Assembly (NCBI GenBank): GCA_029287395.1
Contig: JARFRF010000010.1
Span: 1-55,510, forward strand
Reading direction: 5' to 3'
Source: Methyloceanibacter sp.
Lineage (GTDB): Bacteria > Pseudomonadota > Alphaproteobacteria > Rhizobiales > Methyloligellaceae
DNA length: 55,510 nt
Positions 2,950 to 55,510 of this stretch are shown here, piece by piece; positions within the stretch are counted from its first letter, which is position 1, and each line of letters opens with the position of its first letter. The notes under the pieces were generated by a model that was not told the origin of the DNA, ran no database searches, and worked only from the letters and a program-made list of their open reading frames with translations. The position numbers were made by a program, and so were the translations under genes.

Positions 2950-2954
2950 GTGAC

Positions 2955-4018: not shown

Positions 4019-4750
4019 CTAACGCCAGTCACCCCAGACGGCATTAACGAGCGCAAGGCACGCGACAGCAGCCGTGTCCGCACGCATCACACGGGGGCCC
4101 AGCGAGATTGGCAGCACAAATTCTTGCCGCAGCAATAGATCGCGTTCCTCGGGGTCGAAGCCGCCTTCGGGCCCGATCAAGACGGCATGCGGACGAGCCG
4201 CCTCCGATGCCAATGCCTCGAGGGGCGACGCGACCGCCGCAGTCTCGTCGGCCACAACAAGAAGCCGGGTGGCGTCCCATGTCGACAGAATGTCTTCGAG
4301 CTTCTGCGGGGCATCCACTCGAGGCACCCGCAAGATGCCGCATTGCTCAGCAGCCTCTACCGCGTTCACTTCAAGGCGTTCGACCTTGACCCGTTCAGCG
4401 ACGGTTCGGCGCGTGATGACGGGCCGCAAGACGCTCGCGCCCATCTCCGTTGCCTTCTGCGCCACATAGTCGACACGCGCGCGCTTGATGGGCGCGAAAA
4501 GATAATGCAGATCGGGCCCATCTTCTTGAGGCCGGGTCTGGTGCTCTGCCTCCAGGTTCATGGCCTTCTTGCCAGCCTTACAAATGCGGGCGCACCACTC
4601 ACCGTCGCGGCCGTTAAAGAGCAAGACGTACGAGTCAGGCTTTAATCGAAGCACATTCGCGAGGTAGTGCGTTTGATCTCGATCGAGCACAACCTCCGTA
4701 CCCGAACCGAGCGGGGACTTGACGAACAGCCGTGGCAGTTTAGAGGGCAT
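4019..4750 (-). CDS. rsmE: 16S rRNA (uracil(1498)-N3)-methyltransferase
   Basis: SPOUT-fold methyltransferase that makes m3U1498 in 16S rRNA using S-adenosylmethionine. The 243-residue product has an N-terminal PUA-like part (about 1-75) and the C-terminal SPOUT knot motifs LIGPEGGFDPEE and LGPRVMRADTAAVACLALV, characteristic of RsmE. I start at the ATG at 4750 (MPSKLPRLFV). The open frame runs further upstream, but that part would overlap the divergent ubiA gene at 4789 and does not look like the family. The starts of rsmE and ubiA are only 38 bp apart, so their promoters must overlap. cyoA follows downstream on the same strand after 143 bp, probably as a separate unit. Confidence 0.93.
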   Translation of the reverse strand: MPSKLPRLFVKSPLGSGTEVVLDRDQTHYLANVLRLKPDSYVLLFNGRDGEWCARICKAGKKAMNLEAEHQTRPQEDGPDLHYLFAPIKRARVDYVAQKATEMGASVLRPVITRRTVAERVKVERLEVNAVEAAEQCGILRVPRVDAPQKLEDILSTWDATRLLVVADETAAVASPLEALASEAARPHAVLIGPEGGFDPEERDLLLRQEFVLPISLGPRVMRADTAAVACLALVNAVWGDWR

Positions 4751-5757: not shown

Positions 5758-5837
5758 AGGGACGATGTGTCGGACTCAAGCAAATCAGCCTAGACACGCA
5801 GGGGTGACTTGCGCGCGTTCCGAAGCACAACTCAAGT

Positions 5838-5867
5838 GGGCCCCGGTGCGTATCGCAACCGAGGCCC
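5838..5867. other. GC-rich hairpin downstream of ubiA
   Basis: Arms GGGCC/GGCCC, CGGT/ACCG and GCG/CGC can pair with small internal mismatches around a TAT loop. There is no T-run after it, so it does not fit a standard intrinsic terminator. It may stabilise the ubiA 3' end or assist Rho-dependent termination. The rest of the 261-bp ubiA-cysQ gap shows an AT-rich near-dyad, TTAAT-A-GACGTC-ATTAA, at 5956-5972, 46 bp before cysQ, and nothing else I recognise. Confidence 0.35.
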
Positions 5868-6018
5868 GTGTGACGCCTTGCTGTTAGCTTCCTTATTGGC
5901 TGCCTTGAGGTAGCCTTGATTGCCAGGATGGTGCCACGGAACGTTTCCCGGACGCTTAATAGACGTCATTAACGACCGGTAGCTTCCAGCATGGTTTAGA
6001 GAGTGTTCCCACCGACTG

Positions 6019-6855
6019 ATGACCGCGATAACGCACGATAAGACTTCCGAAGAGGCACATTCCTCATTGCCGAGCCGTGAAGAAGACTTCGAGATCCTCC
6101 GCCGCGCCGTCCGGGAAGCTGGCGCGTTAGCGTCGAGCTACTTCAAGGAGTCCCCAAAAGCCTTCACAAAGTCGGATGGTTCACAGGTTAGCGAGGCTGA
6201 CTTGGCGGTGGATGCGGCCCTAAAACTCGACTTGACGACGCGGCGCAAGGATTACGGTTGGCTATCGGAAGAAAGCCCCGACGATCGCTCACGCCTTAAA
6301 CATTCGCGGGTCTGGATGGTCGATCCTATTGACGGGACAGGCGCGTTCTTGCGGGAAATCCCTGAATGGACGATTTCCGTTGCCCTGGTTGAGAATGGGA
6401 CCCCGGTTATCGGGGTCGTTTACAACCCGGAAAGCGGCGAGTTTTTTCATGCCATCCGCGGGGCCGGCGCCTTTCTCAATGACGCGCCGATCCGCACAAC
6501 TGACAAGGCGACGTTGGAAGGTACGAAGGTAATCGCAAGCGGCGGGCTTTTTCGGAAGAAGATTTGGGAGAACCCTTGGCCCGACGTTACCGCGCGGTGG
6601 GTGAATTCCGTCGCCTATCGCCTCGCGCTTGTAGCTGATGGGACAGGCGACGCCACGATTTCATTGACACCCAAAGCGGAATGGGATCTGGCCGCGGCGG
6701 CGGTGATTGTCGAAGAAGCCGGAGGCGTAATCACCGATCACCTTGGGAATTTGCACAAATACAATAGCGAAAATCCCAAGTTTCCTAGCCTGGTCGCCAG
6801 CGGCAAGGCCTTGCACCCTGCGCTGATCGAGCGCACAAGCCGCGTGGACCTTTAA
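6019..6855 (+). CDS. cysQ: 3'(2'),5'-bisphosphate nucleotidase / inositol monophosphatase family
   Basis: Mg-dependent phosphatase of the IMPase/FBPase superfamily; CysQ members remove the 3'-phosphate of PAP formed during sulfate assimilation. The 278-residue protein has the family metal sites: WLSEES (Glu84), DPIDGT (Asp102 and Asp105) and WDLAAAAVIVEEAGG near the C-terminus. The CysQ assignment over a generic inositol monophosphatase comes partly from the conserved context cysQ - DUF4170 - lipid A genes seen in many Rhizobiales. It starts with ATG at 6019 after a 261-bp gap and is followed by the DUF4170 gene after 52 bp. Substrate specificity is not proven by the sequence. Confidence 0.85.
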   Translation: MTAITHDKTSEEAHSSLPSREEDFEILRRAVREAGALASSYFKESPKAFTKSDGSQVSEADLAVDAALKLDLTTRRKDYGWLSEESPDDRSRLKHSRVWMVDPIDGTGAFLREIPEWTISVALVENGTPVIGVVYNPESGEFFHAIRGAGAFLNDAPIRTTDKATLEGTKVIASGGLFRKKIWENPWPDVTARWVNSVAYRLALVADGTGDATISLTPKAEWDLAAAAVIVEEAGGVITDHLGNLHKYNSENPKFPSLVASGKALHPALIERTSRVDL

Positions 6856-6907
6856 AGCACAATTCGGCACATTGCCTTGGCGAACAAGTCAGCGAGGGGG
6901 ATTTCGC

Positions 6908-7165
6908 ATGTCTGCAAACAGCAATGCGCCGGCAAAAGCAGAGGACGACAAGCAACTGCTTCACCTCGTCTTCGGCGGGCACCTAACCGAATTGGACAGG
7001 GTGCATTTCGACGATCTGAGCAAATTGGACGTCGTCGGCATTTATCCCAACTACGCGACCGCCTATGACGCATGGAAAGACGCCGCGCAGCGCTCAGTGG
7101 ACGACGCTCATATGCGCTACTTCATCGTACACCTTCATCGGCTTCTCGACCCCGATGCAGCTTAG
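6908..7165 (+). CDS. DUF4170 domain protein
   Basis: Small cytosolic protein of 85 residues, unknown function. It matches the DUF4170 type in length and in its core (LVFGGHLTELDRVHFDDL, then a GIYPNYATAYDAWKDAAQ segment), and it sits in the usual alphaproteobacterial position between cysQ and the lipid A/Kdo genes. The ATG at 6908 is preceded by a strong ribosome binding site (GAGGGGG, 7 bp spacing); an upstream in-frame start at 6872 would bypass that site. No signal peptide or membrane segment. The context suggests a link to envelope lipid synthesis or sulfur metabolism, but that is association only. Confidence 0.8.
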   Translation: MSANSNAPAKAEDDKQLLHLVFGGHLTELDRVHFDDLSKLDVVGIYPNYATAYDAWKDAAQRSVDDAHMRYFIVHLHRLLDPDAA

Positions 7166-41713: not shown

Positions 41714-42949
41714 TTACATCTGCCGGTAAATGCGGCCCGGATTGAACAGCCCCATGGGATCGAAGGCATGCTTCAGTTTTGCCGCCAGGGCATCGTGCGG
41801 CCGCTCAAGAGGCTGAAACACATCCGTCCCGTCGCGAATTGTCTTGTCCGCTCTCATCAACGTGGCATGTCCACCAAACTCCGCAAGCTGACGACGGATA
41901 TCGACTGCCGCGGCGTCAGTCAAAGATGGTGTTTCAATCCACATGAGACCGCCCGACCAATCATAGGCAACACGAACATCGATCTTGCGCGCGAGATTGC
42001 TCACAAGCGTCGCGGCTTTGCTGGGGGATGTTGAGACACGCCAAAGCGGGTATTTTGTGTCTTGAAACACTTTCAGAGACCGAATGTCTCTCCAAAAGGC
42101 CCGGCTGCGTTCGCTCTCAAGTTCGACTGACGGATCGTACGCCAGCAGAGCCTGGCGCAATCGGCTTGTCCGGTATCTCGCCGAGGCCGGAAAGCTTTCG
42201 ACTCGTATAGCGGTTAAAGCGCTGCCATTCCCTGCAAGCTCGGTATCCGACAACCTTGCGGCCAGCGGTCCCTGGAGATGCACCGTCCCTGAAACCTCAT
42301 AGGGCGTTCCCATGGCCAGGCAGAGGGCTTCGACGGCAGCGTAGTCTGCGAGCCCATAAAAGATAAGCGTCCGCGTATCTCTCTGTGCAGGTTGTACTTT
42401 CATGGCAATCTCGCACATCACGGCCAGCGTGCCCCAGGATCCCACGAGTGTGCGGGCCACGTCGTAGCCGGTGACGTTCTTCATGACTCGGCCGCCTGAC
42501 TTTACGATTTCGCCGCGTCCGTTCACCGCCGTAAGGCCAAGAACGTGATCGCGTACCGCACCCTTCAGAATGCGGCGGCTGCCGGAAATGTTCGAAGCAA
42601 CAAGGCCCCCAAAGGTGCCATCGCCTGGGCTGTAACCGAGCACCGGCGCGAGATCGACAGGCTCACACGCAAGCTCCTGGTCATTCTCTGCAAGAGCCGC
42701 CTCGATTTCGGTCAAGGGCGTGCCCGCCTTGGCTACAACGACAAGCTCAGTAGGCTCATAAAGGCTTATACCCTTCATATTCTCGGTGCTGACGATCGCG
42801 CCCGCCCGAACCACGTGACCTAGCTCGCGCTTGGTGCCTTTGCCCATAATCTCAAGCGGCGTCCGCGATTCCGCGGCTTGGATTACAAGCTGCGACAGCT
42901 CATCCTCCGTTTCCGGAGCATAGAACCCAAGGCGCATATGGGCGGTCAC
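41714..42949 (-). CDS. glcE: Glycolate oxidase FAD-binding subunit GlcE
   Basis: A 411-residue FAD-binding protein of the PCMH/FAD_binding_4 family, the second flavin subunit of glycolate oxidase. The FAD domain shows LVIQAAESRTPLEIMGKG, LGYSPGDGTFGGLVASNISG and GRVMKNVTGYDVARTLVGS, followed by a truncated C-terminal domain ending in DPMGLFNPGRIY. The start is a GTG at 42949 that overlaps the glcD stop by 4 bp (GTGA); an ATG lies four codons in. This overlap supports co-translation of GlcD and GlcE. Confidence 0.92.
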   Translation of the reverse strand: MTAHMRLGFYAPETEDELSQLVIQAAESRTPLEIMGKGTKRELGHVVRAGAIVSTENMKGISLYEPTELVVVAKAGTPLTEIEAALAENDQELACEPVDLAPVLGYSPGDGTFGGLVASNISGSRRILKGAVRDHVLGLTAVNGRGEIVKSGGRVMKNVTGYDVARTLVGSWGTLAVMCEIAMKVQPAQRDTRTLIFYGLADYAAVEALCLAMGTPYEVSGTVHLQGPLAARLSDTELAGNGSALTAIRVESFPASARYRTSRLRQALLAYDPSVELESERSRAFWRDIRSLKVFQDTKYPLWRVSTSPSKAATLVSNLARKIDVRVAYDWSGGLMWIETPSLTDAAAVDIRRQLAEFGGHATLMRADKTIRDGTDVFQPLERPHDALAAKLKHAFDPMGLFNPGRIYRQM

Positions 42950-44487
42950 AGCCGACCCTCGCTTTCAACAGTCTGTATGTCGTCCGAGAGGTCATCCTCC
43001 GGAGGCAGGCCATCCGAAGCCGCGTCAAGACGAGTCAGCTCCAGACTCGGCTTCACAGCATCGCGCCCGAGAATTGGAAACACTTTACCCGGATTCAAAA
43101 GCCAGGCCGGGTCCAGTTCTTCCTTAATTCGAACCTGCTGGTCGATATCCTCGTCTGTATACTGTTCATACATCAACTCTCGCTTCTCGATGCCCACACC
43201 GTGTTCGCCTGTGAGGCATCCGCCGAGTTCGACACAAAGCTTCAAAATCTCAGCGCCACAAAGCTCAGCCCGCTCAAGCTGACCGGGGTCGTTGGCATCG
43301 TAAAGTATCAGGGGATGAAGATTGCCGTCTCCTGCGTGGAAGATATTGGCTACGTCGAAACGGTATTTACGACATATCAGGCTGACGCCATCCAGGGCCT
43401 CCGGCAACGCCGCCAGCGGAATGACTCCGTCCATACACATGTAGTCGGAGATTTGCCCGATCGCACCGAAGGCCGCCTTGCGGCCCTTCCATATCAGAGC
43501 GCTCTCTTCAGTGGACTGGCTCCGCTTCATGCTGGTCGGATTATGGTCCTGCGCAATATCCTCGATCTTCTCCAAGAGATACTCGATCTCATCTTCGGAC
43601 CCCTCAACTTCGACAATCAGCGCCGCTTCGGCATCGAGAGGGTAGCCCGCAGGCACAAAGTGTTCACAAACATGGATTGCCGGCCTGTCCATGAATTCGA
43701 TTGCCACCGGGAGGATGCCTGAGCCGATAATCGCGGCAACGCAGGAGGCGGCGTCCCTGGTGGAGTCGAAGCCTATCAGCACCGGTCGCGCGCCCTCCGG
43801 CGCTGCAAGCAGTCGGACAGTTGCCTCCGTCACGACACCCAGCTGTCCTTCGGAGCCCGTTATGAGGGGCAGAAAATCGTAGTTAGGTGCATCAAGATGG
43901 GACCCGCCGAATTCGACGATCTCACCATCAATCATAACCATGCGCACGGCGAGCAGGTTGTTGACCGTGACTCCGTATTTGAGGCAATGCGCTCCACCGG
44001 AATTCGTCGCGATGTTGCCGCCGACTGTGCAGGCGATCTGGCTGGACGGGTCGGGTGCATAGAAGAAGCCCTGGGCAGAGGCGGCCTGGGTAATCGCAAG
44101 ATTGGTGACGCCAGCCTCTACGCGCGCGACCCGGTTGGCTGTGTCGATCTCCAGGACTTTGCTCATACGCGATAGGCAGAGAACGATGGAGTCTTCCAAC
44201 GGCGTAGCGCCGCCGCACAACGAGGTACCCGCCCCGCGCGGCACAACTTTCACCTGGTTCTCATAGCAGAAGCGCAGGATTGCCGAGACTTCCTCCGTAT
44301 TCGCAGGAAGAACCACCGCGAGCGGCAACCGGCGATAAGCAGAGAGCGCATCAGACTCAAAAGTACGCCGCCCTTCCAGATCGGCGATCATCAGCGCCTC
44401 GGGCGCCAATCTCTTGAGTTGTTTAACCACTTCGTTCCGCCGAGCCATGACGACGCGATCGGGATCTGGAAGGGTCACAGTGGACAT
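42946..44487 (-). CDS. glcD: Glycolate oxidase catalytic subunit GlcD
   Basis: The catalytic FAD subunit, 513 residues. The FAD-binding P-loop region VVPRGAGTSLCGGATP, the second GGNIATNSGGAHCLKYG, and the C-terminal catalytic parts FHAGDGNLHPLILYD and ELGGCLTGEHGVGIEKRELM are all present, with the length of the family (about 500). The C-terminal tail (about 30 residues) is polar and extra. I start at ATG 44487 (MSTVTLPDPD), with GGAG upstream at 9 bp; the frame runs to 44517. glcD-glcE-glcF are a unit. No glcB or glcC regulator is in the window; the solitary TRAP binding protein precedes glcD. Confidence 0.93.
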   Translation of the reverse strand: MSTVTLPDPDRVVMARRNEVVKQLKRLAPEALMIADLEGRRTFESDALSAYRRLPLAVVLPANTEEVSAILRFCYENQVKVVPRGAGTSLCGGATPLEDSIVLCLSRMSKVLEIDTANRVARVEAGVTNLAITQAASAQGFFYAPDPSSQIACTVGGNIATNSGGAHCLKYGVTVNNLLAVRMVMIDGEIVEFGGSHLDAPNYDFLPLITGSEGQLGVVTEATVRLLAAPEGARPVLIGFDSTRDAASCVAAIIGSGILPVAIEFMDRPAIHVCEHFVPAGYPLDAEAALIVEVEGSEDEIEYLLEKIEDIAQDHNPTSMKRSQSTEESALIWKGRKAAFGAIGQISDYMCMDGVIPLAALPEALDGVSLICRKYRFDVANIFHAGDGNLHPLILYDANDPGQLERAELCGAEILKLCVELGGCLTGEHGVGIEKRELMYEQYTDEDIDQQVRIKEELDPAWLLNPGKVFPILGRDAVKPSLELTRLDAASDGLPPEDDLSDDIQTVESEGRL

Positions 44488-44644
44488 GTCTGCACGCTCC
44501 GAACCGCCTAGGGGCAACAGAGATGATGGATGCTCATAACTCTTCGCATTTTCCGAGGCTGAAGAGCAAGCTGCGCTCGCAGTGTATCAAGGCATGGGCC
44601 CAAACAAAACGCGGCAGGGCCTGGAACCGTCCATGGCCAGTCGC

Positions 44645-45769
44645 TCAGGGCCCCACTGGCGTGGCGTCGCCAGGCGGCGGCGGGGGTGGTATCGCCTCCT
44701 CGGCCTTTCGGACCTTCGGATTGGCTGCGTTTTCGCCATCGACGCCGCCCGACCTAAACGCCTCTATGTCCTCAAGTACCTCCTTGAACAGGTAGTCTCG
44801 AACGCCCTCTTCCTCTGCCACCTGTTTCCAGCCCTCGCGCAAGGCTTCCTCAACGTCGTCGGGTAGGCTCAGGATTCTGACACTATCCTGATTGGCGAAC
44901 GCCGTAAGCGCTGCCGCTTGGAGATTGGTGCTTGCCGACAATGTCTTCTGAAGCATTTCGCCGCAGGTCCGCTCGATAAGCGACTGGCGCTCTGGACCAA
45001 GAGAATCCCATCGATCCTTATTAATCAGGAATTCGAAGACCGTGGCGGGCTGTATCCAACCCGGCTGGTAGAGAATCTTCGCAGAATCCTGAAGGCTGTT
45101 AGCCCGATCCACGGCTGGCGTATAGGCCTCCGCAGCATCGATCTTCCCCTCTGAAAAAGCCTCTCCAATTTGGCTGCCTGGAAGCAAGACCGGGACGGCG
45201 CCCAGGCGCATCATCACACGAGCTCCCAGCCCAAAAATACGTATGCGCAGGCCGTCCAGATCGTCAACGGAGGTGATTTCATCCACAAACCAGCCGCCAG
45301 CCTCGGCGCCGCCGAATGCGCACGGAATGACATGAACCTTGACCTTGGCTTGATCGTACATTTCTTGATAGAGAGCACGCCCATGGCCACGGTTGAACCA
45401 ATCTCGGTACTCTTTGGCCGTAGGGCCGAACGGATAGCCACTGAACAAGCTGGCCGCAGGCAGCTTTGCTGCCCAGTACCCGGCCGTTGAGAACCCAGCG
45501 TCAACTTTGCCGTCTGAGACCTTGTCCAAGATCTCGAATGGAGCCGTGCCGTCACCGGGTTCCTTCAATTCCAGCTGTATGGCTCCGTCAGAACGCTCCC
45601 TCAGGAGCCGGGCCAGGTCGCGTGCAGGCGTTCCAAGGCCCGGGACATGCGTTCCATAGGCTACGGGCGTCTCAAGCGTGACCGTTTGGGCGGGCGCTGC
45701 GATCGTTTCGGCCAATAGAGCGAGCCATAGGCCACCTGCTACCAATGCTTGAAATGCAGCACACCTCAT
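44645..45769 (-). CDS. TRAP transporter solute-binding protein (DctP family), solitary
   Basis: A 374-residue periplasmic binding protein. Signal peptide (1-27, ending ETIAAP), then the DctP fold: TPARDLARLLRERSDGAIQLEL, DAGFSTAGYWAAKLPAASLF and FGLGARVMMRLGAVPVLLPGSQ. The FLINKDRWDSLGPERQSLIER segment and the helical C-terminus also match. The last 25 residues form an unusual Pro-rich tail. No DctQ or DctM membrane genes are nearby. It lies 157 bp upstream of glcD on the same strand and might deliver a carboxylate such as glycolate, which is only a guess from position. Its leader contains the 16-bp dyad at 45792-45807. Confidence 0.83.
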   Translation of the reverse strand: MRCAAFQALVAGGLWLALLAETIAAPAQTVTLETPVAYGTHVPGLGTPARDLARLLRERSDGAIQLELKEPGDGTAPFEILDKVSDGKVDAGFSTAGYWAAKLPAASLFSGYPFGPTAKEYRDWFNRGHGRALYQEMYDQAKVKVHVIPCAFGGAEAGGWFVDEITSVDDLDGLRIRIFGLGARVMMRLGAVPVLLPGSQIGEAFSEGKIDAAEAYTPAVDRANSLQDSAKILYQPGWIQPATVFEFLINKDRWDSLGPERQSLIERTCGEMLQKTLSASTNLQAAALTAFANQDSVRILSLPDDVEEALREGWKQVAEEEGVRDYLFKEVLEDIEAFRSGGVDGENAANPKVRKAEEAIPPPPPPGDATPVGP

Positions 45770-45791
45770 CGCGAATCGCCGCCGGCTAGGC

Positions 45792-45807
45792 CTCCTTACA
45801 TAAGGAG
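45792..45807. promoter_or_regulatory. Dyad CTCCTTA-CA-TAAGGAG in the leader of the TRAP binding protein
   Basis: Perfect 7-bp arms with a 2-bp centre, 22 to 38 bp upstream of the start codon at 45769. Read on the minus strand it contains a Shine-Dalgarno-like TAAGGAGG, but 21 bp from the ATG, too far to act normally, and no in-frame start codon lies nearer to it. It may be an operator or an RNA hairpin that hides a ribosome-binding sequence. The other half of the 172-bp divergent region serves the 45942 gene. Confidence 0.4.
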
Positions 45808-45941
45808 CTTGGCCCCAAGATCGAAAGACCTCAACCCGTTGCTTCCGTTTAGATCGCGCTTCCGCTATGGTTCGTCCAATTTTCCGGCATGTATCATCTC
45901 GTTAGGCTAAGCTTTTGAGGGCCTGACGCAGGACGGGTTCA

Positions 45942-47906
45942 ATGAACTTCGCCGTTTGGCTCATCGAACGCCCCCGCTGGTTCAAGCGGATTCTCCTAAT
46001 CGCAAATGACTTCGTGATGCTCGGCATTGCGTTGTGGGCAGCCTATTCCTTGCGGCTTGGCCGCTTCTATGTCCCCGAAACCTGGCAGACCCTGCTGCTA
46101 TTCCTCGCTGCGCCCGTTATCGGCGTCTTCGTTTTTTATTGGCGTGGCTTGTACAAACTTGTCACTCGGTTCATCGGCCCATCTGGCACCACGCAAATCT
46201 ACGTCGCCGTTATAATCGCCGCGGTACTTTGGGCGCTCATCGTCTACTTGAGCGGCGTAAAGAATCACCCGCGTTCGGTCGTCGTGATTTACGCCTTGAT
46301 CGCGGCAATACTAATCCGCCTTACCCGGCAATGGGCTGGTTCCACTCTGCTCAAGGCTGCGCCACAGTATCAGCCGATCCGAACCGACATCCAAAAGAAC
46401 GTCATTATTTACGGAGCAGGCTCCGCTGGCATTCAGCTTCTCCGTGCGCTGAACGAAGTGGGCACCCATCGCACAGTCGCCTTTATCGACGCCAGCCCGT
46501 CGCTGGCCGGCCAGGTGGTGCATGGGGTCAAGGTCATCCGGCCCGAAAAAGTTGGCAAGGTGATAGCGGACGAAGATGTCGACGAGGTCCTACTTGCGGC
46601 ACCGTCCGCTCTCCGCAGCGAGCGCCGTGTCGCACTTAGAATGCTCGAACAATATCCCGTCGAAGTAAAGACACTGCCTGCACTGGAGGAGATCGCATCC
46701 GGTCGTGTCGAGGTGAGCGATTTGCGGCCAATCGATGTGGAGGATCTCTTGGGCCGCGATCCAGTGACGCCGGATACGGCTCTCTTGGCGTCCCAAGTTC
46801 GCGACAAGTCGGTTCTCATCACCGGCGCAGGCGGCTCTATCGGCTCTGAACTCACCAGGCAACTCTTACAGCTGCGACCGAGGAAACTCGTGCTGTTCGA
46901 TGTTTCGGAGCCGGCCCTGTACGATATATCGCTCGAAATTAGCGAGATGCAGCGACGCATGCAGGTCGGCTCTAGCAACACCGGCGAGCAGACTACGGTC
47001 GTTCAGGTTCTTGGCTCGGTGCTCGACCGCGACCTCGTGCGCCGGATTATCGACAAATACGATGTCGAGGTCATCTATCACGCTGCCGCTTACAAGCATG
47101 TGCCCATCGTCGAAATGAACCCTTCCGTCGGTTTGCGGAACAATGTGTTCGGCACACTCGTCGTCGCCGAGGCCGCCCGAGATGCGGGCGTGGAGCGGTT
47201 TGTACTGATCTCAAGCGACAAAGCCGTTCGGCCCACCAATGTCATGGGGGCTAGCAAGCGCTTGGCTGAGCTTATTCTGCAAGCTCTCGCCGAGGATCCG
47301 AGCAAGACGACGTTCACAATGGTACGCTTTGGCAATGTGCTTGACTCATCCGGCTCCGTCGTTCGGTTGTTCCGTAACCAGATCAAAGCGGGTGGACCGG
47401 TCACCGTCACCCATCCCGAGGTGATCCGATACTTCATGTCTATCCCCGAAGCCGCTCAGCTCGTTATCCAGGCTGGGGCCATGGCCGAAGGGGGAGAGGT
47501 TTTCGTGCTGGAGATGGGAACGCCGGTCAAGGTCGACGACCTAGCGCGCACGATGATCCGTTTATCGGGACTTGAAGTTAAGGATCAGGATCATCCGGAG
47601 GGTGATGTTGAGATTCGATACATCGGACTGCGCCCTGGCGAAAAACTCTTTGAGGAGCTGTTGATCGGCGAGGACGCGACGGGCACTGACCACCCGCGTA
47701 TCTTCAAGACCTCCGAACCCGTTCTTGCGTATGAAGACCTGGTCGCCGCACTGCAACGGTTCGAGAAGGCGATCGCGAGCAACGATCTCACTGAAGTCCA
47801 GGCGATGCTGCGCGCCACGGTGGAAGGCTACGCGCCAGGCAGTGCTGCAGCCGCCACAGCGCCCGGAACCGACGAATGGCAACCGCAATCGCAAACTCTG
47901 CACTGA
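45942..47906 (+). CDS. UDP-sugar 4,6-dehydratase, membrane type (WbpM/WreV-like)
   Basis: A 654-residue polysaccharide-biosynthesis SDR of the FlaA1/CapD/WbpM class. Four membrane helices occupy about residues 15-130. A NAD-binding-like domain with IYGAGSAGIQLLRAL lies at about 150-260, then the catalytic SDR domain from about 285 with ITGAGGSIGSELTRQLL. The catalytic segment SSDKAVRPTNVMGASKR has Met in place of the SDR Tyr, as is normal for these dehydratases. Such enzymes make UDP-4-keto-6-deoxy-sugars from UDP-GlcNAc. ATG 45942, with a GGACGGG ribosome binding site. It is followed after 4 bp by the sugar-phosphate transferase, and together with the next two genes matches the R. etli WreV-WreU-WreQ set. 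Confidence 0.9.
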   Translation: MNFAVWLIERPRWFKRILLIANDFVMLGIALWAAYSLRLGRFYVPETWQTLLLFLAAPVIGVFVFYWRGLYKLVTRFIGPSGTTQIYVAVIIAAVLWALIVYLSGVKNHPRSVVVIYALIAAILIRLTRQWAGSTLLKAAPQYQPIRTDIQKNVIIYGAGSAGIQLLRALNEVGTHRTVAFIDASPSLAGQVVHGVKVIRPEKVGKVIADEDVDEVLLAAPSALRSERRVALRMLEQYPVEVKTLPALEEIASGRVEVSDLRPIDVEDLLGRDPVTPDTALLASQVRDKSVLITGAGGSIGSELTRQLLQLRPRKLVLFDVSEPALYDISLEISEMQRRMQVGSSNTGEQTTVVQVLGSVLDRDLVRRIIDKYDVEVIYHAAAYKHVPIVEMNPSVGLRNNVFGTLVVAEAARDAGVERFVLISSDKAVRPTNVMGASKRLAELILQALAEDPSKTTFTMVRFGNVLDSSGSVVRLFRNQIKAGGPVTVTHPEVIRYFMSIPEAAQLVIQAGAMAEGGEVFVLEMGTPVKVDDLARTMIRLSGLEVKDQDHPEGDVEIRYIGLRPGEKLFEELLIGEDATGTDHPRIFKTSEPVLAYEDLVAALQRFEKAIASNDLTEVQAMLRATVEGYAPGSAAAATAPGTDEWQPQSQTLH

Positions 47907-47910
47907 CCCT

Positions 47911-48918
47911 ATGGACGACGCCAACGTTGTTTTGAGCGCAGTCGTGGTCGGCGCGAGCGCCATTTTGAGCGCAGCGCTCATTTTCTTACTCAGGCCGTTT
48001 CTGCTGCGCCACTTAATGGCGCATCCAAACGAACGCTCTTCCCATGCCCGCGCGACCCCAGAGGGAGCCGGCTTTGGCGTGATGGGAGCGATCTTTCTGG
48101 TGAGTCTTGGGCTTGCCGTCGGCACGCTGCCAATGGAGCCGATGCTCGTTCCGGTTCTTGTCGGTGCCGCGGTCCTCACAATCCTCGGCGGGCTCGACGA
48201 TGCACGGCCGCTACCCATCGCCTGGCGGCTGCTGGTCCAAGGTGCCGTGGCGCTTGGCATTGTTCTCACCTTGCCCCAGGACTTTCGAGTCTTGCCTACC
48301 ATGCTTCCCGTCGGTGCCGAACGAGCGCTCCTAGTCTTTGGCATCGTTTGCTTCGTGAACGTCGTGAATTTTCTCGACGGCCTAGACTGGATGACGGTCG
48401 CTCAAGCCGTCCCGATGTCATTCGGCATAGCAATCCTCTGGTGGTTAGGGTTCGTCCCAGAGGGAATTGGCCTTTTGGCGCTTGCGCTGCTTGGCGCCAT
48501 GCTCGGCTTCGCTATCTTCAACAAGCATCCAGCCCGCATCTTCTTGGGTGACTCCGGTAGCCTTCCCATCGGACTGCTCTTGGCCACAATGCTCATATGG
48601 GTTGCACACGCGCATTTCGTCTCCGCCGTCTTGCTGGCCCTCTACACTGTTGCCGACAGTGGGCTGACGTTCTTTCGACGCTTGCGGGACGGGGACAAGG
48701 TGACGGACGCTCACCGCTCCCACTTCTACCAGAGAGCGACGACCGGTGGATTCAGTATACCCGAGGTCAGTTCACGCGTCTTTCTAGTGTGCTGTTGGCT
48801 CGCAGCTCTTGCGATCGCGGCGGCGCTGGGCCGGTCTCTTTTTACCGATTTGCTCGCGCTTTTGCTTGGCACTGGCGGCGTTGCGCTTGTACTGATCGGT
48901 TTTGCGCGGGGACGCTGA
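47911..48918 (+). CDS. Polyprenyl-phosphate sugar-1-phosphate transferase (WbpL/WreU-like, MraY family)
   Basis: A 335-residue multi-helix membrane protein of glycosyltransferase family 4 in the WecA/MraY superfamily, which moves a sugar-1-phosphate from a UDP-sugar to undecaprenyl phosphate, the first committed step of O-antigen or exopolysaccharide chains. Motifs: NERSSHARATPEGAGFG (normally HPNxRSSHxxPTPxGGG), the Asp pair in LGGLDDARPLP, NVVNFLDGLDWM, IFLGDSGSLPIG and HRSHFYQR. The ATG at 47911 lies 4 bp after the previous stop; the open frame upstream overlaps that gene and is excluded. Acceptor sugar is not known; QuiNAc-1-P is suggested by context. Confidence 0.9.
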   Translation: MDDANVVLSAVVVGASAILSAALIFLLRPFLLRHLMAHPNERSSHARATPEGAGFGVMGAIFLVSLGLAVGTLPMEPMLVPVLVGAAVLTILGGLDDARPLPIAWRLLVQGAVALGIVLTLPQDFRVLPTMLPVGAERALLVFGIVCFVNVVNFLDGLDWMTVAQAVPMSFGIAILWWLGFVPEGIGLLALALLGAMLGFAIFNKHPARIFLGDSGSLPIGLLLATMLIWVAHAHFVSAVLLALYTVADSGLTFFRRLRDGDKVTDAHRSHFYQRATTGGFSIPEVSSRVFLVCCWLAALAIAAALGRSLFTDLLALLLGTGGVALVLIGFARGR

Positions 48919-48925
48919 GAAAAAA

Positions 48926-49855
48926 ATGCGAATTCTCGTCACGGGCGCCACTGGGTTCATTGGCTCGAGCCTCGTACCGGCATTGGCAAGACAGGGCTAT
49001 TTCGTTCGAGCGGCCGCCCGCGATCTTTCCTGTCTTGCGGCAGGCCCCAATATTGAACCCGTCGCGATGCCAGATCTATCGACTAAGGCGGATTGGTCCG
49101 AAACACTCGACGGCGTCACGCACGTTGTGCATCTCGCAGGCATTGCTCACGCCCCGGGGGCGCTGCCAGACCATGTCTATTCCCGCATCAACACCGATTC
49201 TGTGGTCAAACTTGCGGAGCAGGCAAAGGGACATGTCGAACGTTTCGTTTTCATGTCGTCGGTCCGCGCGCAGGCAGGGCTTTCGTCGCCTACCCCGATC
49301 ACCGAAGCCGACACGCCCTCGCCGACGGAAATCTACGGCTACACCAAGCTCGCGGCCGAACGGCAACTCGCTGCAAGCGGCGTTGATTTTACGGTACTTC
49401 GGCCTGCAGTCGTTTACGGGCCTGGCGTGAAAGGCAATATTGCCGCGCTCGCAACCATAGCCAAGACACCGATGCCGCTACCGTTCGGCGGATTGGACAA
49501 TCGCCGGTCCCTTGTCGCGATCGAGAACCTCATTTCTTCAGTGACCCATGTTCTTCGATCCGAACAGACTCGCAACGAGACCTACTTGGTCGCCGATGCT
49601 GCCCCGATCAGCGTCGCAGGGATCGTCGGCGCCATGCGCGAAGGACTTGGGCGTCCGCCACAGCTCGTGAAGATGCCCAGCAGAGCCATCCGCCGACTGA
49701 TGAAATCTTTCGGACGCGAAGACGACTGGGAACGCGTATGCGGAGCATTCGAGATCGACCCATCGAAACTTATGGCAACGGGCTGGAAGCCCGAGATAGA
49801 AAGCGCGGAAGGCATCAAGCGTATGATGCGCCTATCTCATGACCAGGCGACCTAG
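48926..49855 (+). CDS. NAD-dependent sugar epimerase/reductase (WbpV/WreQ-like SDR)
   Basis: A 309-residue extended SDR: RILVTGATGFIGSSLVPAL at the start (Rossmann glycine motif), HLAGIAH, and the YGYTK catalytic YxxxK around residue 140. The closest functional types are the 4-reductases that convert UDP-4-keto-6-deoxy-GlcNAc to UDP-QuiNAc (WreQ) or UDP-FucNAc (WbpV). The gene lies 7 bp after the sugar-phosphate transferase and is the third in the unit. ATG 48926 is chosen since RILVTGATG follows at once. Its TAG overlaps the TAG of the convergent glycosyltransferase in CTAG (49852-49855). A plain UDP-glucose epimerase is possible but the context favours the reductase. Confidence 0.85.
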   Translation: MRILVTGATGFIGSSLVPALARQGYFVRAAARDLSCLAAGPNIEPVAMPDLSTKADWSETLDGVTHVVHLAGIAHAPGALPDHVYSRINTDSVVKLAEQAKGHVERFVFMSSVRAQAGLSSPTPITEADTPSPTEIYGYTKLAAERQLAASGVDFTVLRPAVVYGPGVKGNIAALATIAKTPMPLPFGGLDNRRSLVAIENLISSVTHVLRSEQTRNETYLVADAAPISVAGIVGAMREGLGRPPQLVKMPSRAIRRLMKSFGREDDWERVCGAFEIDPSKLMATGWKPEIESAEGIKRMMRLSHDQAT

Positions 49856-50994
49856 CGATCAATCAAACTCGCATAGAGTTCTGCCGTCTCCTGACCGATT
49901 GCTCGCGAGGAGAACTTCTGTTCGGTGAGCCGCCGGGCCGCGGCCCCATAGCGACGCCGAAGGCTTGGATCGGCCGCAAGCTTGCTCATAGCCTCCGCGA
50001 GCGCGCTCGCATCATCGACAGGGACCAAGAAACCAGTCTCTCCCGGTATAGAGATTTCCCGGCAACCGGGCACGTCCGTGGCCACCATGGGCCGGCCGCA
50101 CGCGGCGGCCTCCAGCAAGCTCTTGGGAAGACCCTCACCGCCGCGCGAAGGCTGCACGGCAAAATGTGCTCGTTCCCAGACCTCCCGTACGTCCGTCACG
50201 TGGCCTAGCCAAGTAATGCCATAGGCAGAGGCAAGCTCTTGCAGCTGTTCAGGCGCGAGTGACCCAGGATTCTCTGGATCGCAGTCGCCCGCGAGCAGCA
50301 GATGCAGGCTCAGCGTTTCGCCGCTGGACATGCCGTCGGTTGCCTGTCTGAAGGCATCGATCAATGTCAGCACGCCCTTGTGCTGAAGCATCCGGCCGAC
50401 GAAGGCCGCCGTGACTACACCGTCGGGCTCTGGGAGAGGTTGGAACTTCTCGATGTCGACACCGGAGCCGGCGATGATTTTGATAGCCTCTTCGGGCACA
50501 CCCAGACTTGCAACAAAGGTTCGGTCTTCTGGGTTTTGCACCACTGCCATCGATCGGTTTCGCCGCAACAGCCGACTTAGAGCCATTACCACAAGCTTTC
50601 GTGTGACCTGGCTCGCGCCTCCGCCATGGACGAAAAGCGCACCCATGCCTGTGAGACTGTTGACGATCGCGGTCTCATTGAGGCCGAAGCCCGCTATGGT
50701 GCCCAGCAGGACCGGCTTCAAAGCCACGTTGTGAACAATATCTGGCTCAAGCTCGCGCATGAGGCCGCGTAAGTGCAACACGGCCGATAGGCTGTCAAAG
50801 GCTGAGATGCTGCCGCGGTTCCAGCTCAATCGATGCGGGACGAAGCCCTCTGCCTCAATTGCGGCCGCACCATCAAGAATTCGGGCTGCCACGTGCACCT
50901 CGAAACCCGCCGATTGGGCCGCACGCGCCATAGGCAGGCGGTGCGATAGGAAATACCAATCTTCCGTAACAATGTAGAGGATACGCCGCGCCAT
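49852..50994 (-). CDS. Glycosyltransferase family 4 (GT-B)
   Basis: A 380-residue cytosolic GT-B enzyme. The N-terminal domain begins RILYIVTEDWYFLSHRLPMA, and the C-terminal donor-binding domain has AFVGRMLQHKGVLTLIDAF, the EGLPKSLLEAAACGRPMVAT segment with the conserved Glu, and GETGFLVPVDD. Likely adds a sugar to the lipid-linked acceptor built by the convergent module at 45942-49855, for instance the second residue of the O-antigen. The donor sugar is not predictable. It is convergent to and overlapping with that module by 4 bp, and divergent from the 51223 gene. Confidence 0.88.
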   Translation of the reverse strand: MARRILYIVTEDWYFLSHRLPMARAAQSAGFEVHVAARILDGAAAIEAEGFVPHRLSWNRGSISAFDSLSAVLHLRGLMRELEPDIVHNVALKPVLLGTIAGFGLNETAIVNSLTGMGALFVHGGGASQVTRKLVVMALSRLLRRNRSMAVVQNPEDRTFVASLGVPEEAIKIIAGSGVDIEKFQPLPEPDGVVTAAFVGRMLQHKGVLTLIDAFRQATDGMSSGETLSLHLLLAGDCDPENPGSLAPEQLQELASAYGITWLGHVTDVREVWERAHFAVQPSRGGEGLPKSLLEAAACGRPMVATDVPGCREISIPGETGFLVPVDDASALAEAMSKLAADPSLRRRYGAAARRLTEQKFSSRAIGQETAELYASLIDR

Positions 50995-51615: not shown

Positions 51616-52350
51616 ATGCAGGACTTTATTGCCCTCCAGCGCTGGCTTTACGAGGGTATGGCGAGCGGACTGAGCGATGTCGCTGATGGGCGCTTTCCAG
51701 CGCTTATCGCCGCCATGGGCGCCGCGGTGCTCTTTGGCGTGCTTCACGCGATGATGCCCGGCCACGGCAAGACCATTCTGTTCTCCTATCACCTCGGTCA
51801 AAAAGACAGCTTGCTATCCAGCATCCTGAATGGCGCCATCCTCGCGCTCACCCATGTTGGGATCGCCATAGTGCTGGTGCTTGCCGGCTTCGCTGTTCTC
51901 TCACGGGCCTTCGCCTATGGCGGGCGCACACCCCAGTTCGAACTCGCGAGCGGTATCTTGGTCGTTCTCATCGGCGCTTATTTGCTCTGGCGGGCCGTTG
52001 GACGCGCGGCCACGCTGGATGCGGACAAGGCGCCCCCGCAAGAGGGCCGGACCCTCGCTTTTGTGACGGGTCTGGTGCCCTGCCCGCTGACGACTTTCAT
52101 CATGAGCTACGCGCTAGCGCGCGGTCTGCTTTCGGCAGGGTTTGCTGTCACCGCCGCCATGGCGGCCGGGATGGTGCTGACCATTTCCGCCGTGGCTGTA
52201 TTGGCGACGGTCTCCCGCGAGCGCCTCCTATCGTTCTTTTCGCGGACAGAGCGGCTCCGGCGGTGGCTTGGACGCGGTTTGGAGATTGGCGGTGCAGGGC
52301 TTGTTGTGCTTCTTGGCGTTTGGATGATCATGGGGGCACAGTCGACCTGA
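51616..52350 (+). CDS. Nickel/cobalt transporter family protein (NicO/RcnA-like)
   Basis: A 244-residue membrane protein with six hydrophobic segments. It shows the NicO-type features VLHAMMPGHGKTILFSYHLG (His and metal-site residues near 44-52), the TALTHVGIA-like ILALTHVGIAIVLV, and GLVPCPLTTFIMSYAL with its Pro-Cys-Pro. Members either import or export Ni/Co; RcnA is an efflux pump. The short length and lack of a His-rich loop are compatible with either. Starts at ATG 51616. It converges with the octaheme gene, leaving only 3 bp between the stops, and no nickel enzyme is nearby. Confidence 0.8.
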   Translation: MQDFIALQRWLYEGMASGLSDVADGRFPALIAAMGAAVLFGVLHAMMPGHGKTILFSYHLGQKDSLLSSILNGAILALTHVGIAIVLVLAGFAVLSRAFAYGGRTPQFELASGILVVLIGAYLLWRAVGRAATLDADKAPPQEGRTLAFVTGLVPCPLTTFIMSYALARGLLSAGFAVTAAMAAGMVLTISAVAVLATVSRERLLSFFSRTERLRRWLGRGLEIGGAGLVVLLGVWMIMGAQST

Positions 52351-52353: not shown

Positions 52354-54849
52354 CTACCGTGCGCCCTGCTCTTCCATCAGCTCCTTCGTCAACACCTCGA
52401 TGAGAGTTTTGATCTGCGGATTTGTGGGATCGGCTTTGGCAAGCCGCTGCGCATAGTCCAACGCGCCTTTCAGATCGCCGTCATCACGAGAAAGATTTAC
52501 GAGAATGGACAATATCTCGACATTGCTCGGGTACTGCTCCAGACCCGATTTCAAAACGTCGATGGCTTCGGCGCGCTTTCCGAGTGACTCAAGTCCAACA
52601 GCATATACATAGAGGTAGCGCGCACGCGCCGGTTCCAAGTCCGCCGCACGCGCCAAAGCCGTCACAGCCTCTTCTGTCTTGTTTAGGCGAACGAGGGCCA
52701 AGCCCAGAGCATGGTGGAGCCCGCCATCATTCGGCGAAGAGCGCAAAGCAGCCCGAAGCACATCGACACCCTCTTCATCGCGCCCTTGCGCGCGATACAA
52801 ATCTGCGAGATTTACTGCAGCAGGCGCAAAATGGGGGCTGAGTTCGACAGCTGTCTTATATGCGGCCTCAGCCTGATCGAGTTCTCGCTTGCGAAGGTGG
52901 TATCGCGCCATAAGCGACTGTGATTCCGGCCGATCGGCATTGAGTCGCTGCGCAGCCACGAATTCCTCTTCGGCCTTCTCAAGTCTGCTCCGATCGCTTG
53001 CTGAGAGATTTCCGTCTGGTGTCCCAGCAAGCAGGAAGCCAACCTTCGAACGGACACCGCGCACTGGATCGTCCAAGAGTTGCGCAATGAGCGGCCAGAG
53101 CTGCGCGCCGGGGGCCGCCTCCAAATGATCGAGCGACGCGATCCGGACGAGAGGGTCAGGATCTGACAGTCCCTGTCGAACGATGCGCGCCGTTTGCCGC
53201 GATGGATAAGCGGCCAGCGCTTCGACAGCACTCGCACGCACAAATGCCGGAGTTGCGGCATCGTTTGCGACGTCCGCTAGCAATGCAGCCGCGTCGGGCG
53301 AGCCTGTCCACGCTGCGTGGAACGCCGGGCCAAATCTCTGATGACCCTTACGCTCCGGGCCGTACCAATCTTCGATGGCATCGGCCGCCCATTTAGCGCT
53401 TTTGTCCGTGTGGCAATCTGTGCAGGCATTGTCGACGCCTAGCGTCATCGACAGATCCGGCCGCGGCACGCGGAAGGAATGGTCGTGCCTTGTATCGATG
53501 ACCATGAACTCACGCGATGGCATATGACAGGATATGCACGTGGGCGCATCGGCGCCTTGGTGATGTGTGTGGCTCGGATCTTGATAGGTCCCGGCGTGGC
53601 ACTGCATGCAGACATTCGCGCCCGGCGCAAGCAGCTTGGCACTGTGCGGCTCGTGACAGTCGCTGCATGTGACGCCTGCCTCAAACATCTTGGACTGTTT
53701 AAACTGACCGTAATTGTAGACTTCGTCGAGCATTTGTCCGTCAGCCTGGTAGAGGCCCTGCGAGATCAGCGACACGTCGTGACTGTCTGACAGTGGCCGG
53801 CCCGGTACGAAGGCTTCGGACAGGATCCCCCGGCGCGCGTGGCAGCGCCCGCACATCTCGACTTCCTTGCGGACGCTCATAGGGGGTGAACTACGGATGG
53901 GCTGCTTGGTTTGTGGATCTAGCGACCAAGAAATTCCCTCTCGCTCGTTGAAGCGAGCTAGAAGCCCCAGCGCGTCGTCGCCCGCTGGGGACATGCCCCC
54001 CTCCGCCCAGGCGACATGGGCGGACCCTTCTCCGTGACACGCCTCGCATCCAACCGTGATTTCTTTCCAGGTCGTGTCATAGCGTTTCGTCTTCGGGTCG
54101 TAGTCCTTGGCAACGCCGGTCGAATGGCACTCGGCGCACATGAAGTTCCAGTTTTGATTTAGCTTGGTCCAATGAAGCGGGTCGTCATGACCGATCTTCT
54201 CGTACGGATAGAGGTGGAACCAGCGCTGGCCCCCTTGTTCTTCCGGCCGGCTATCCCACGCAATCGTCAGGGCCTGAACGCGCCCATCGGGAAACTCGAT
54301 AAGATATTGCTGCAACGGGTCGAGACCGAACGTGTACTTGACCTCAAAGGTCTCGAGCTCACCACCCGGACCATCGGTCTCGACAAGAAACTTGCCATCT
54401 TTTTTGAAGAAGCGAGAAGTGATGCCGAAATAGTCGAAAGTCGTGTCGTTGAAGTCTGCGAGCACCGTGTCAGTCGTGGCGTGCGCCATCGCATGAGCAT
54501 GTTGCGAGGGTTGCCAATTCTCTCCCACTTCTTGGTGGCAGGAGATACAGGTCTCGGTGCCGACAAAACTTAGTGGAGTGGCTGGCCCTGGTCCCGTCGC
54601 AGACTTGCCCCCGGTGTCCGCCGCACGGTCGGCCGGTACAGCCGGGTGTGAACCAATGACGTTGAGGATGAGCCCCACGGCGAGAAAGAGCGTGGCCGCG
54701 AGCGCAGCGAACCCAACTACCAAATAGACCTTCGAACGCTGCGGCAGCGGAGATGCGCCCGCAGTCCTTGATGCATTTTGCGGCTGCTTATCCGAACCGA
54801 GCGTTTCACGTTGGCTGTCCAAACTAGCTCCGCTCTCTCGATTGGGCAT
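52354..54849 (-). CDS. Membrane-anchored octaheme cytochrome c with HEAT and TPR repeats
   Basis: An 831-residue protein with an unusual architecture. A short cytosolic tail and one membrane helix (about 41-65) lead to a periplasmic cytochrome domain with eight CxxCH heme motifs: CISCH 101, CAECH 238, CEACH 268, CGRCH 333, CSDCH 395, CMQCH 414, CISCH 438 and CTDCH 476. Then come HEAT-like repeats (about 515-610; ASAVEALAAYPSRQTARIV, LVRIASLDHLEA) and TPR repeats (about 625-825). Spaced hemes as in cytochrome c554-type proteins suggest electron transfer or nitrogen/sulfur redox chemistry, while the repeats suggest a partner protein. Function is not established. The ATG at 54849 follows a GGGGGC; a TTG at 54858 is the alternative. 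It follows a small exported protein gene on the same strand. Confidence 0.88.
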   Translation of the reverse strand: MPNRESGASLDSQRETLGSDKQPQNASRTAGASPLPQRSKVYLVVGFAALAATLFLAVGLILNVIGSHPAVPADRAADTGGKSATGPGPATPLSFVGTETCISCHQEVGENWQPSQHAHAMAHATTDTVLADFNDTTFDYFGITSRFFKKDGKFLVETDGPGGELETFEVKYTFGLDPLQQYLIEFPDGRVQALTIAWDSRPEEQGGQRWFHLYPYEKIGHDDPLHWTKLNQNWNFMCAECHSTGVAKDYDPKTKRYDTTWKEITVGCEACHGEGSAHVAWAEGGMSPAGDDALGLLARFNEREGISWSLDPQTKQPIRSSPPMSVRKEVEMCGRCHARRGILSEAFVPGRPLSDSHDVSLISQGLYQADGQMLDEVYNYGQFKQSKMFEAGVTCSDCHEPHSAKLLAPGANVCMQCHAGTYQDPSHTHHQGADAPTCISCHMPSREFMVIDTRHDHSFRVPRPDLSMTLGVDNACTDCHTDKSAKWAADAIEDWYGPERKGHQRFGPAFHAAWTGSPDAAALLADVANDAATPAFVRASAVEALAAYPSRQTARIVRQGLSDPDPLVRIASLDHLEAAPGAQLWPLIAQLLDDPVRGVRSKVGFLLAGTPDGNLSASDRSRLEKAEEEFVAAQRLNADRPESQSLMARYHLRKRELDQAEAAYKTAVELSPHFAPAAVNLADLYRAQGRDEEGVDVLRAALRSSPNDGGLHHALGLALVRLNKTEEAVTALARAADLEPARARYLYVYAVGLESLGKRAEAIDVLKSGLEQYPSNVEILSILVNLSRDDGDLKGALDYAQRLAKADPTNPQIKTLIEVLTKELMEEQGAR

Positions 54850-54960: not shown

Positions 54961-55380
54961 CTAAAAGCCATCCACGCAGTCTCCGGTTAACGACAAAGTC
55001 GCATCTCCCGTCGTGATACCACCGCGGATCTTTCCGGTCTTCGTCGAGATGGCTGCACTCCAGGAGCGAGGCGACTCGTCGTTGTCACCAAGGCCGTGCA
55101 GGAGAATAATATCACCCTTTTGCAGTACGTTTTTCAGGTCGACTCCGCGCGGCTCGCTACCGATGTCGTCCGACGTTATCCTATCCTTGTCGAAGTCCAA
55201 CTTTAGCACCGGCGCCAGGTTCGCGAAGTCGAGCGAAACGCGCTTACAGCCCGCAACCTCCGTGCATTCGTAAACGTCCGTAAAGGCACACAAGTAGGTG
55301 CCCTCGGCGGCGGAAACAGTTGCCGGAGCCGCAAGCAGACAAATGAGCCCGAGGCCCGCTTTTGAAATTATCGATCGCAT
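54961..55380 (-). CDS. Exported protein, unknown, Cys-rich
   Basis: A 139-residue protein with a signal peptide (MRSIISKAGLGLICLLAAPATVSA, then AEGTYLCAF) and four Cys in the mature part (YLCAF, YECTEV, AGCKR, GDCVD) that probably form two disulfides. The mid-part is a beta-rich domain with Asp and Gly turns (LLHGLGDNDES). No family recognised. The ATG at 55380 has an AGGAGCT ribosome binding site 7 bp away, which settles the start; the upstream frame to 55428 overlaps the partial gene at the right edge. It is upstream of the octaheme gene by 111 bp on the same strand. Confidence 0.65.
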   Translation of the reverse strand: MRSIISKAGLGLICLLAAPATVSAAEGTYLCAFTDVYECTEVAGCKRVSLDFANLAPVLKLDFDKDRITSDDIGSEPRGVDLKNVLQKGDIILLHGLGDNDESPRSWSAAISTKTGKIRGGITTGDATLSLTGDCVDGF

Positions 55381-55391
55381 AGTCTGAGCTC

Positions 55392-55510
55392 CTATTGGGT
55401 AACAACGTAGCCGCGGCCTTCGAGGCATAGCGCCCCGGCCTTGAGATAGTCCGCATACAGGGCATTCAGCCTGCGCACATCGGCGGAGGTGCGCGTATTG
55501 CCAAAGCCTC
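55392..55510 (-). CDS. C-terminal end of an unidentified gene (partial, 5' outside window)
   Basis: The minus strand frame read from 55508 ends at a TAG (55394-55392) and encodes the last 38 residues of a protein: NTRTSADVRRLNALYADYLK, then AGALCLEGRGYVVTQ. It looks like a genuine coding end: a helix with regular charge pattern, then a short tail. No family can be assigned from so short a piece. It ends 11 bp before the start of the next gene on the same strand, which fits an operon. Confidence 0.6.
   Translation of the reverse strand, partial: GFGNTRTSADVRRLNALYADYLKAGALCLEGRGYVVTQ

Follow-up and report, generated by a model that had tools for sequence, protein, structure and literature searches.

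What might an octaheme cytochrome do when its hemes are followed by HEAT and TPR repeats? The question is raised by a gene near the end of contig JARFRF010000010.1 of Methyloceanibacter sp. (GenBank assembly GCA_029287395.1)—the whole contig, 55,510 nucleotides, was analysed and is called the window here. Sulfatases work only after one of their residues has been turned to formylglycine, and two kinds of enzyme are known to do this: the formylglycine-generating enzyme (FGE) and anSME. We consider the balance to lie modestly in favour of the cytochrome being a dedicated maturation factor for Cys-type sulfatases, periplasmic and heme-based, and unrelated to either enzyme. That the cytochrome itself generates formylglycine, which would add a third chemistry to those of copper FGE and radical SAM anSME, is a narrower proposal, to which we give somewhat less than an even chance.

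Architecture and Distribution of the Cytochrome

The reading frame of the cytochrome ends at 52354 and stays open back to a TTG at 54858, which gives 834 residues in place of the 831 counted from the ATG (Table 1). It holds exactly eight CxxCH motifs (at 104, 241, 271, 336, 398, 417, 441, and 479 in the 834-residue numbering) and has no Cys beyond them. Pfam matches above cut-off are to Cytochrome_C7, Cytochrome_C554, Paired_CXXCH, HEAT_2 (residues 540-605), and several TPR models. An AlphaFold2 model of the whole protein, computed from an alignment of 69 sequences (mean predicted local distance difference test score, pLDDT, 89.3; predicted template modelling score, pTM, 0.86), comprises an N-terminal helix, a mixed heme domain with a beta-sheet insert, and an alpha-solenoid at 485-830 (831-residue numbering). 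An initial annotation, generated by a model from the DNA letters, had described this combination of eight CxxCH sites, membrane anchor, HEAT, and TPR repeats in 831 residues, and the open reading frame (ORF), motif count, Pfam matches, and AlphaFold2 model bear it out. It had also held that the protein falls outside the classical respiratory enzymes and that a partner could dock on the repeats; both ideas fit the results below, and neither is proven. Among the best 25 of 35 families in each of two domain searches, none was a well-characterised family of enzymes that has these repeats.

The cytochrome is found in several bacterial phyla and on plasmids. At least 303 relatives were found in GTDB contigs, and 80 loci were kept; record titles place these in Alpha-, Beta-, and Gammaproteobacteria, Planctomycetota, Myxococcota, Bacteroidales, Acidobacteria, Gemmatimonadetes, and others, the closest relative among the loci found being that of Methyloceanibacter superfactus (L035, 68%). 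Eight CxxCH motifs occur in 82 of 84 listed ORFs, window included, and seven by pattern in two (L059, L103)—the eight-heme pattern is not chance, because 81 of 83 listed relatives keep it. The match at L014 has nine. Plasmid records carrying the cytochrome number 147, of which 124 are from Rhizobium or Sinorhizobium.

Sulfatase Genes as Neighbours

The commonest neighbour family of the cytochrome is the sulfatase family PF00884, present in 29 of 88 clustered stretches. A sulfatase lies within 5 kb of the cytochrome in 30 of the 80 named loci and within 10 kb in 33; among the sulfatase matches listed in a genome census (see below), 20 of 40 cytochrome genes have one at most 5 kb away, as do two of four further cytochrome genes opened by hand. 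Eight plasmid loci, chosen for variety among the best 25 of the 147 records, all have an annotated arylsulfatase one to three genes away. The two genes stand directly side by side in loci of Methylosinus trichosporium OB3b, Vibrio, and Planctomycetota (L083); in OB3b the cytochrome and arylsulfatase ORFs overlap by 4 bp. The OB3b pair of proteins is filed under WP_003612355.1 and WP_003612357.1.

This partner is not visible in the window because only 652 bp of contig precede the TTG (661 bp precede the ATG), and in the gene order of the nearest relative the sulfatases lie beyond that end. Ahead of the M. superfactus cytochrome stand a TAGR sulfatase, a HAD hydrolase, a second sulfatase, and a relative of the window's small exported protein, whose gene is the single upstream gene wholly inside the window (Table 1). 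The window genome has a TAGR sulfatase and a HAD gene at the end of another contig (C13), an arrangement consistent with the M. superfactus order running across the gap. Both M. superfactus sulfatase genes (2785-4277 and 5425-7073) match in two pieces in different frames (tblastn), from an assembly error or a real frameshift. A HAD gene was found in seven of the 80 cytochrome loci.

The initial annotation had looked to two upstream genes on the same strand, suggesting that adjoining genes may share a system with the cytochrome. The contig end leaves one whole upstream gene, and the downstream neighbour is on the other strand; a neighbouring partner does exist, in the sulfatases, and the genes named for it were the wrong ones. 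Upstream genes that vary freely between genomes had been taken as a sign against a shared system, and here the outcome is divided: the small exported gene was found only in the nearest relative, and the sulfatase recurs. We rejected the exported protein and the downstream NicO-like transporter as partners, since among the 80 named loci (a good number of them short) L035 was the only one in which either was found.

Maturase Genes at Sulfatase Loci

Formylglycine is made from Cys or Ser while the sulfatase chain is unfolded, according to PMC5066984. We searched 80 genomes for PF03781, the family of FGE / SUMF1, and TIGR03942, that of the radical SAM sulfatase maturase anSME: 35 genomes with the cytochrome and 45 of 98 that have a sulfatase only. 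To obtain these first 45 controls, alternate genomes of the 98 were taken, less four at the end; the remaining 53 were later searched for FGE only. At least 117 sulfatase genes were listed for the 80 genomes, with up to three candidates scored per genome. For this locus census a PF03781 score of >=200 bits counted as FGE, with the Cys pair not yet considered; in those of G569, G407, and G619 no such pair was found.

Within 10 kb of these listed sulfatase genes, 28 had the cytochrome, 26 had PF03781, six had anSME, 57 had none of these, and none had two kinds. At the level of sequence, the cytochrome is thus mutually exclusive with FGE-family and anSME genes at the listed loci; it partners the sulfatase gene in place of the known maturases, with exceptions. 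In the five genomes that have both cytochrome and FGE, the two are far apart or on different contigs.

All 20 cytochrome-linked sulfatases that were read (of 28; within 8.1 kb) are Cys-type, 13 with CTAGR and seven with CSPTR. All 19 FGE-linked ones read (of 26) are Cys-type too, although in three (L267, L270, L273) the Cys is present off the C-x-(P/A)-x-R pattern; L272 was excluded from the 19 and from the tree described next, its FGE being on another contig with none in the surrounding 14 kb. Among anSME-linked sulfatases within 3 kb, eight of 11 have Ser and three of 11 Cys, and one genome (G631) has a CTAGR sulfatase linked to the cytochrome and an STAGR one linked to anSME.

A tree was built of 44 TAGR sulfatases: 32 linked to the cytochrome at up to 10 kb (the window genome's is included, by its inferred gene order), eight to FGE, and four to anSME. 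On its well-supported branches the cytochrome label must change at least six times, the FGE label four times, and the anSME label twice; the labels are clustered rather than random, and the FGE-linked L255 is nested in a cytochrome-linked clade. A HAD gene stands beside the sulfatase in five of nine FGE loci opened. Partner swaps, together with the HAD gene at both kinds of locus, suggest that the same sulfatase-HAD module uses one or another maturase gene.

These swaps also bear on the idea that the cytochrome is a catabolic oxidoreductase, acting on the sulfatase's released product or on a sulfur compound of the same pathway. We hold such a role to be quite unlikely: the heme domain is indeed related to the sulfite reductase MccA and to OcwA (see below), but the partners are sulfatases of unlike classes (CTAGR and CSPTR), and the same sulfatase family with its HAD gene occurs with FGE, an exchange with a maturase that one would not expect of a pathway enzyme.

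In gene context, then, the cytochrome resembles both known maturases. The FGE gene likewise adjoins Cys-type sulfatases, some of them from the very TAGR family that has the HAD partner, and the anSME gene adjoins the same sulfatase family; however, anSME partners are mostly Ser-type (8/11), and FGE differs in using copper rather than heme and, in prokaryotes, in being cytosolic (PMC4505483). In the protein itself, neither PF03781 nor TIGR03942 was matched among the best 25 of 35 families, and the lack of any Cys outside the heme motifs leaves the cytochrome without the catalytic Cys pair of FGE and speaks against a radical SAM domain like that of anSME as well.

Sulfatases and Known Maturases across Genomes

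The census covered 388 genomes of the window's phylum, with a sulfatase match defined as E<=1e-30. The cytochrome was found in 35 genomes and a sulfatase match in 132; the match was present in 34 of the 35 cytochrome genomes versus 98 of the 353 without it (Fisher p 1e-16, for genomes that are not independent). In a separate set of 21 genomes reached through the loci, PF00884 was found at E<=1e-20 in 20.

For comparisons between genomes, FGE was taken as a PF03781 match with the Cys pair; the weaker PF03781 matches left unread in cytochrome genomes are second matches, or the only one (G548), that look like EgtB. Defined in this way, FGE was found in 5 of 34 sulfatase genomes with the cytochrome versus 49 of 98 without (p 2.5e-4, genomes treated as independent, though they are not). 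With a stricter sulfatase cut of E<1e-80, chosen afterwards, the counts are 5/32 versus 43/64 (p 2.8e-6). Among the matches listed for the separate 21 genomes, a Cys pair was seen in none of 30 PF03781 loci read. The window genome, which is 81% complete, has seven sulfatase genes; its sole PF03781 gene is EgtB (567 bits, cut-off 360), and no anSME was found in it. Matches to anSME over cut-off occur in 8 of 35 cytochrome genomes versus 4 of 45 controls, and six of the eight belong to family f191.

A separate observation concerns short PF03781 proteins (262-290 residues) in which no FGE Cys pair was found. These adjoin anSME at G306:C2:391982-394118 and G364:C2:1275127-1277266, and similar ones stand beside anSME in G470, G530, G538, G614, and G662.

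Fold of the Heme Domain and Heme Ligands

The heme domain was searched alone, because whole-protein PDB lists were swamped by TPR chains. A profile of 19 heme domains (hmmsearch) found its best match in OcwA (PDB 6I5B), the nonaheme terminal reductase of Thermincola potens, with a whole-sequence E of 4.6e-17 and a weak heme-4 piece. Next came the undecaheme S-layer cytochrome 6QVM (4.4e-11) and, weakly, c554 (6e-5), MccA (2e-4), and others. In the alignment pieces, hemes 1-4 of the cytochrome correspond to OcwA 1-4, and its hemes 5-8 to OcwA 6-9; a multiheme core in this order marks the OcwA/MccA/NrfA superfamily. Modelled alone (pLDDT 92.2), the heme domain aligns with OcwA over 323 of 407 residues at 3.2 A (VIA-align, Z 19.7); other structural scores are Z 13.6 for 6QVM, 8.6 for MccA, about 6 for NrfA, and 4.1 for HAO, and Foldseek matches MccA at E 7e-6. 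In predicted fold, the heme domain is closest to OcwA, then MccA.

MccA, the octaheme sulfite reductase of Wolinella (PDB 4RKM), has an eight-heme core in common with the cytochrome; its structural match is weaker than OcwA's and its sequence match is weak. To our knowledge it has no HEAT/TPR part and no link to sulfatases. OcwA is alike in heme order and in predicted fold over most of the heme domain, and its open-site heme 2 aligns with heme 2 of the cytochrome. The cytochrome also has a beta-sheet insert; an extra beta-sheet domain is common to OcwA and MccA (PMC6703420). OcwA is unlike the cytochrome in its nine hemes, its C-terminal three-helix bundle rather than HEAT/TPR, and its Gram-positive cell-surface role (PMC6703420). 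Past heme 8, the AlphaFold2 model has short repeat helices; a C-terminal bundle of three long helices is a further mark of the superfamily. The nitrite reductase NrfA and HAO were rejected as identities: most NrfA have a CxxCK active-site heme (PMC6703420), and NrfA has five hemes, whereas all eight motifs of the cytochrome are CxxCH; by sequence NrfA matched weakly (E 0.0097), and HAO was not among the listed profile matches.

Six His outside the motifs (120, 281, 405, 430, 433, and 460) and Met452 are invariant in 84 sequences (834-residue numbering). Twelve residues ahead of heme 2, position 229 is His in 77 of these, Tyr in 6, and Phe in 1. The six invariant His plus Met452 are one short of a sixth ligand per heme, so the ligand count suggests one open-site heme—by homology heme 2, with Met452 as a candidate ligand in a model built without heme. 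Open sites in OcwA are at hemes 2 and 5, and its heme 9 has His-Met ligation (PMC6703420).

The OcwA match might suggest a respiratory or extracellular electron transfer cytochrome whose link to sulfatases is incidental, and an exported, perhaps barrel-like protein family does occur near the cytochrome in nine loci. We think this very improbable. The contrast in sulfatase matches (34/35 versus 98/353 genomes) and the 4-bp ORF overlap with the sulfatase in OB3b argue against an incidental link, and none of the 20 annotated neighbour families is a cytochrome.

A Proposed Route to Sulfatase Maturation

Exported sulfatases reach the periplasm unfolded. The anchor and c-type hemes point to a cytochrome that is anchored in the inner membrane and carries its hemes on the periplasmic side, and the HEAT/TPR solenoid may there hold a still unfolded sulfatase arriving from export. 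The multiheme domain would then oxidise the active-site Cys (C-T-A-G-R or C-S-P-T-R) to formylglycine, with the chemistry probably at the putative open heme 2, and the electrons of this net two-electron oxidation would be taken up and stored in the heme chain. The cytochrome would in this way do the job of FGE, and partly that of anSME, with no kinship to either. In FGE, a hydrogen is taken from the Cys beta-carbon, giving a thioaldehyde that is hydrolysed to formylglycine (PMC12123546).

A more indirect part in maturation is conceivable, in which the cytochrome supplies electrons to another maturase, keeps the active-site Cys reduced, or handles sulfide released in the periplasm. The co-occurrence and exclusivity data fit this equally, electron carriage is common among multiheme proteins, and redox genes recur nearby (the short-chain dehydrogenase family in nine loci, the pyridine nucleotide-disulphide oxidoreductase family in four). 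FGE itself needs a reductant, whose physiological identity is described as unknown in PMC12123546. However, these redox families recur less than the sulfatases do (29/88 stretches), it is the cytochrome itself that adjoins the sulfatase in the OB3b, Vibrio, and Planctomycetota loci, and the ligand count suggests an open-site heme; we judge an indirect role to be unlikely.

We know of no relative of the cytochrome among the multiheme cytochromes of E. coli. The sulfatase maturation machinery of that organism is called elusive in PMC6189696, and the third maturation system known from this mention would likewise mature Cys-type sulfatases without FGE or anSME. A literature search (open-licence PMC articles by title and start of abstract, no preprints) found no link between multiheme cytochromes and sulfatase maturation in that range; absence from print is not claimed.

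Several points weigh against a heme-based maturation factor. The sulfatase profile used in the census (A3) includes cytochrome-linked sequences, which favours finding those, and two genomes have the cytochrome with no sulfatase match: G649 of the census and G303, a metagenome-assembled chromosome in the 21-genome set. No sulfatase was seen within 10 kb in 47 of the 80 named loci, many on short contigs, and of the 38 loci flanked by 5 kb or more on each side just 13 have one within 5 kb. With FGE and anSME combined, the contrast between genomes shrinks to 13/34 versus 30/45 (p 0.02, against the first 45 controls). A Cys-pair FGE accompanies the cytochrome in five genomes and an anSME over cut-off in eight, and in the locus-reached set anSME passes its cut-off in 5 of 21 genomes; such coexistence implies that the cytochrome is not always the sole maturase. 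Part of the contrast is family structure, FGE having been found in 4 of 16 cytochrome-holding families, or 7 of 16 once the 53 later genomes are added (f176, f178, f182). In strong-sulfatase genomes without the cytochrome, 21 of 64 showed no Cys-pair FGE, with anSME in four of the ten of these searched for it. In six genomes with a strong sulfatase match (G448, G484, G495, G518, G554, G619), neither Cys-pair FGE nor anSME over cut-off nor the cytochrome was found, and at least one further maturation route therefore probably exists. Known prokaryotic FGE acts in a different compartment, the cytosol (PMC4505483). Finally, formylglycine formation by the cytochrome is a prediction from the parts of the protein and its gene associations.

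Other Genes near the Cytochrome

Coordinates of the cytochrome, its parts, and its immediate neighbours are given in Table 1. Members of a set comprising MoxR AAA ATPase, DUF58, DUF4381, VWA, VWA-TPR, and BatD proteins adjoin or lie near the cytochrome in Vibrionaceae (L098, L107, L109, L112) and Dyella (L049, L051, L061), and the MoxR-DUF58-DUF4381-VWA-BatD set is possibly a folding or metal-loading helper. The exported, perhaps barrel-like family has about 280-300 residues (L039, L045, L046, L066, L069, L074, L084, L100, L101), with no Pfam match for the one member scanned. Further along the window, at 42946-50994, are a glycolate-oxidase-like FAD protein, a DctP protein, and glycan genes; several have relatives in similar order in L035, which looks like ordinary synteny.

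Table 1. Features of the cytochrome gene and its flanks in the window (residues in the 831-residue numbering).
Feature	Position	Strand	Basis
Octaheme c-type cytochrome with N-terminal anchor, HEAT, and TPR	52354..54849	-	831 aa from ATG 54849
Predicted membrane anchor helix, aa 42-65	54655..54726	-	Hydrophobic stretch in translation and AlphaFold2 helix, moderate confidence
Eight-heme domain, OcwA/MccA-like predicted fold	53398..54561	-	Profile match to OcwA and structural alignment of model
Beta-sheet insert between heme 1 and heme 2, aa 121-212	54214..54489	-	AlphaFold2 secondary structure
Heme 2 motif CAECH, candidate active-site heme	54124..54138	-	Inferred from alignment to open-site heme 2 of OcwA
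HEAT-like helical repeats, aa 485-606	53032..53397	-	Pfam and AlphaFold2
TPR superhelix, aa 617-830	52360..53001	-	Pfam and AlphaFold2
Small exported protein, 155 aa, four Cys in likely mature part	54961..55428	-	Translation; relative found only in L035
NicO-like transporter, tail to tail with cytochrome	51616..52350	+	Pfam; relative at same place only in L035

Implications

Many census genomes with Cys-type sulfatases showed neither FGE nor anSME, and a heme-based maturase, if true, would explain part of these. It would provide a named gene to test and a new type of reaction for multiheme cytochromes, and it might offer another route to aldehyde tags. It would also matter for the breakdown of sulfated algal and soil polymers.

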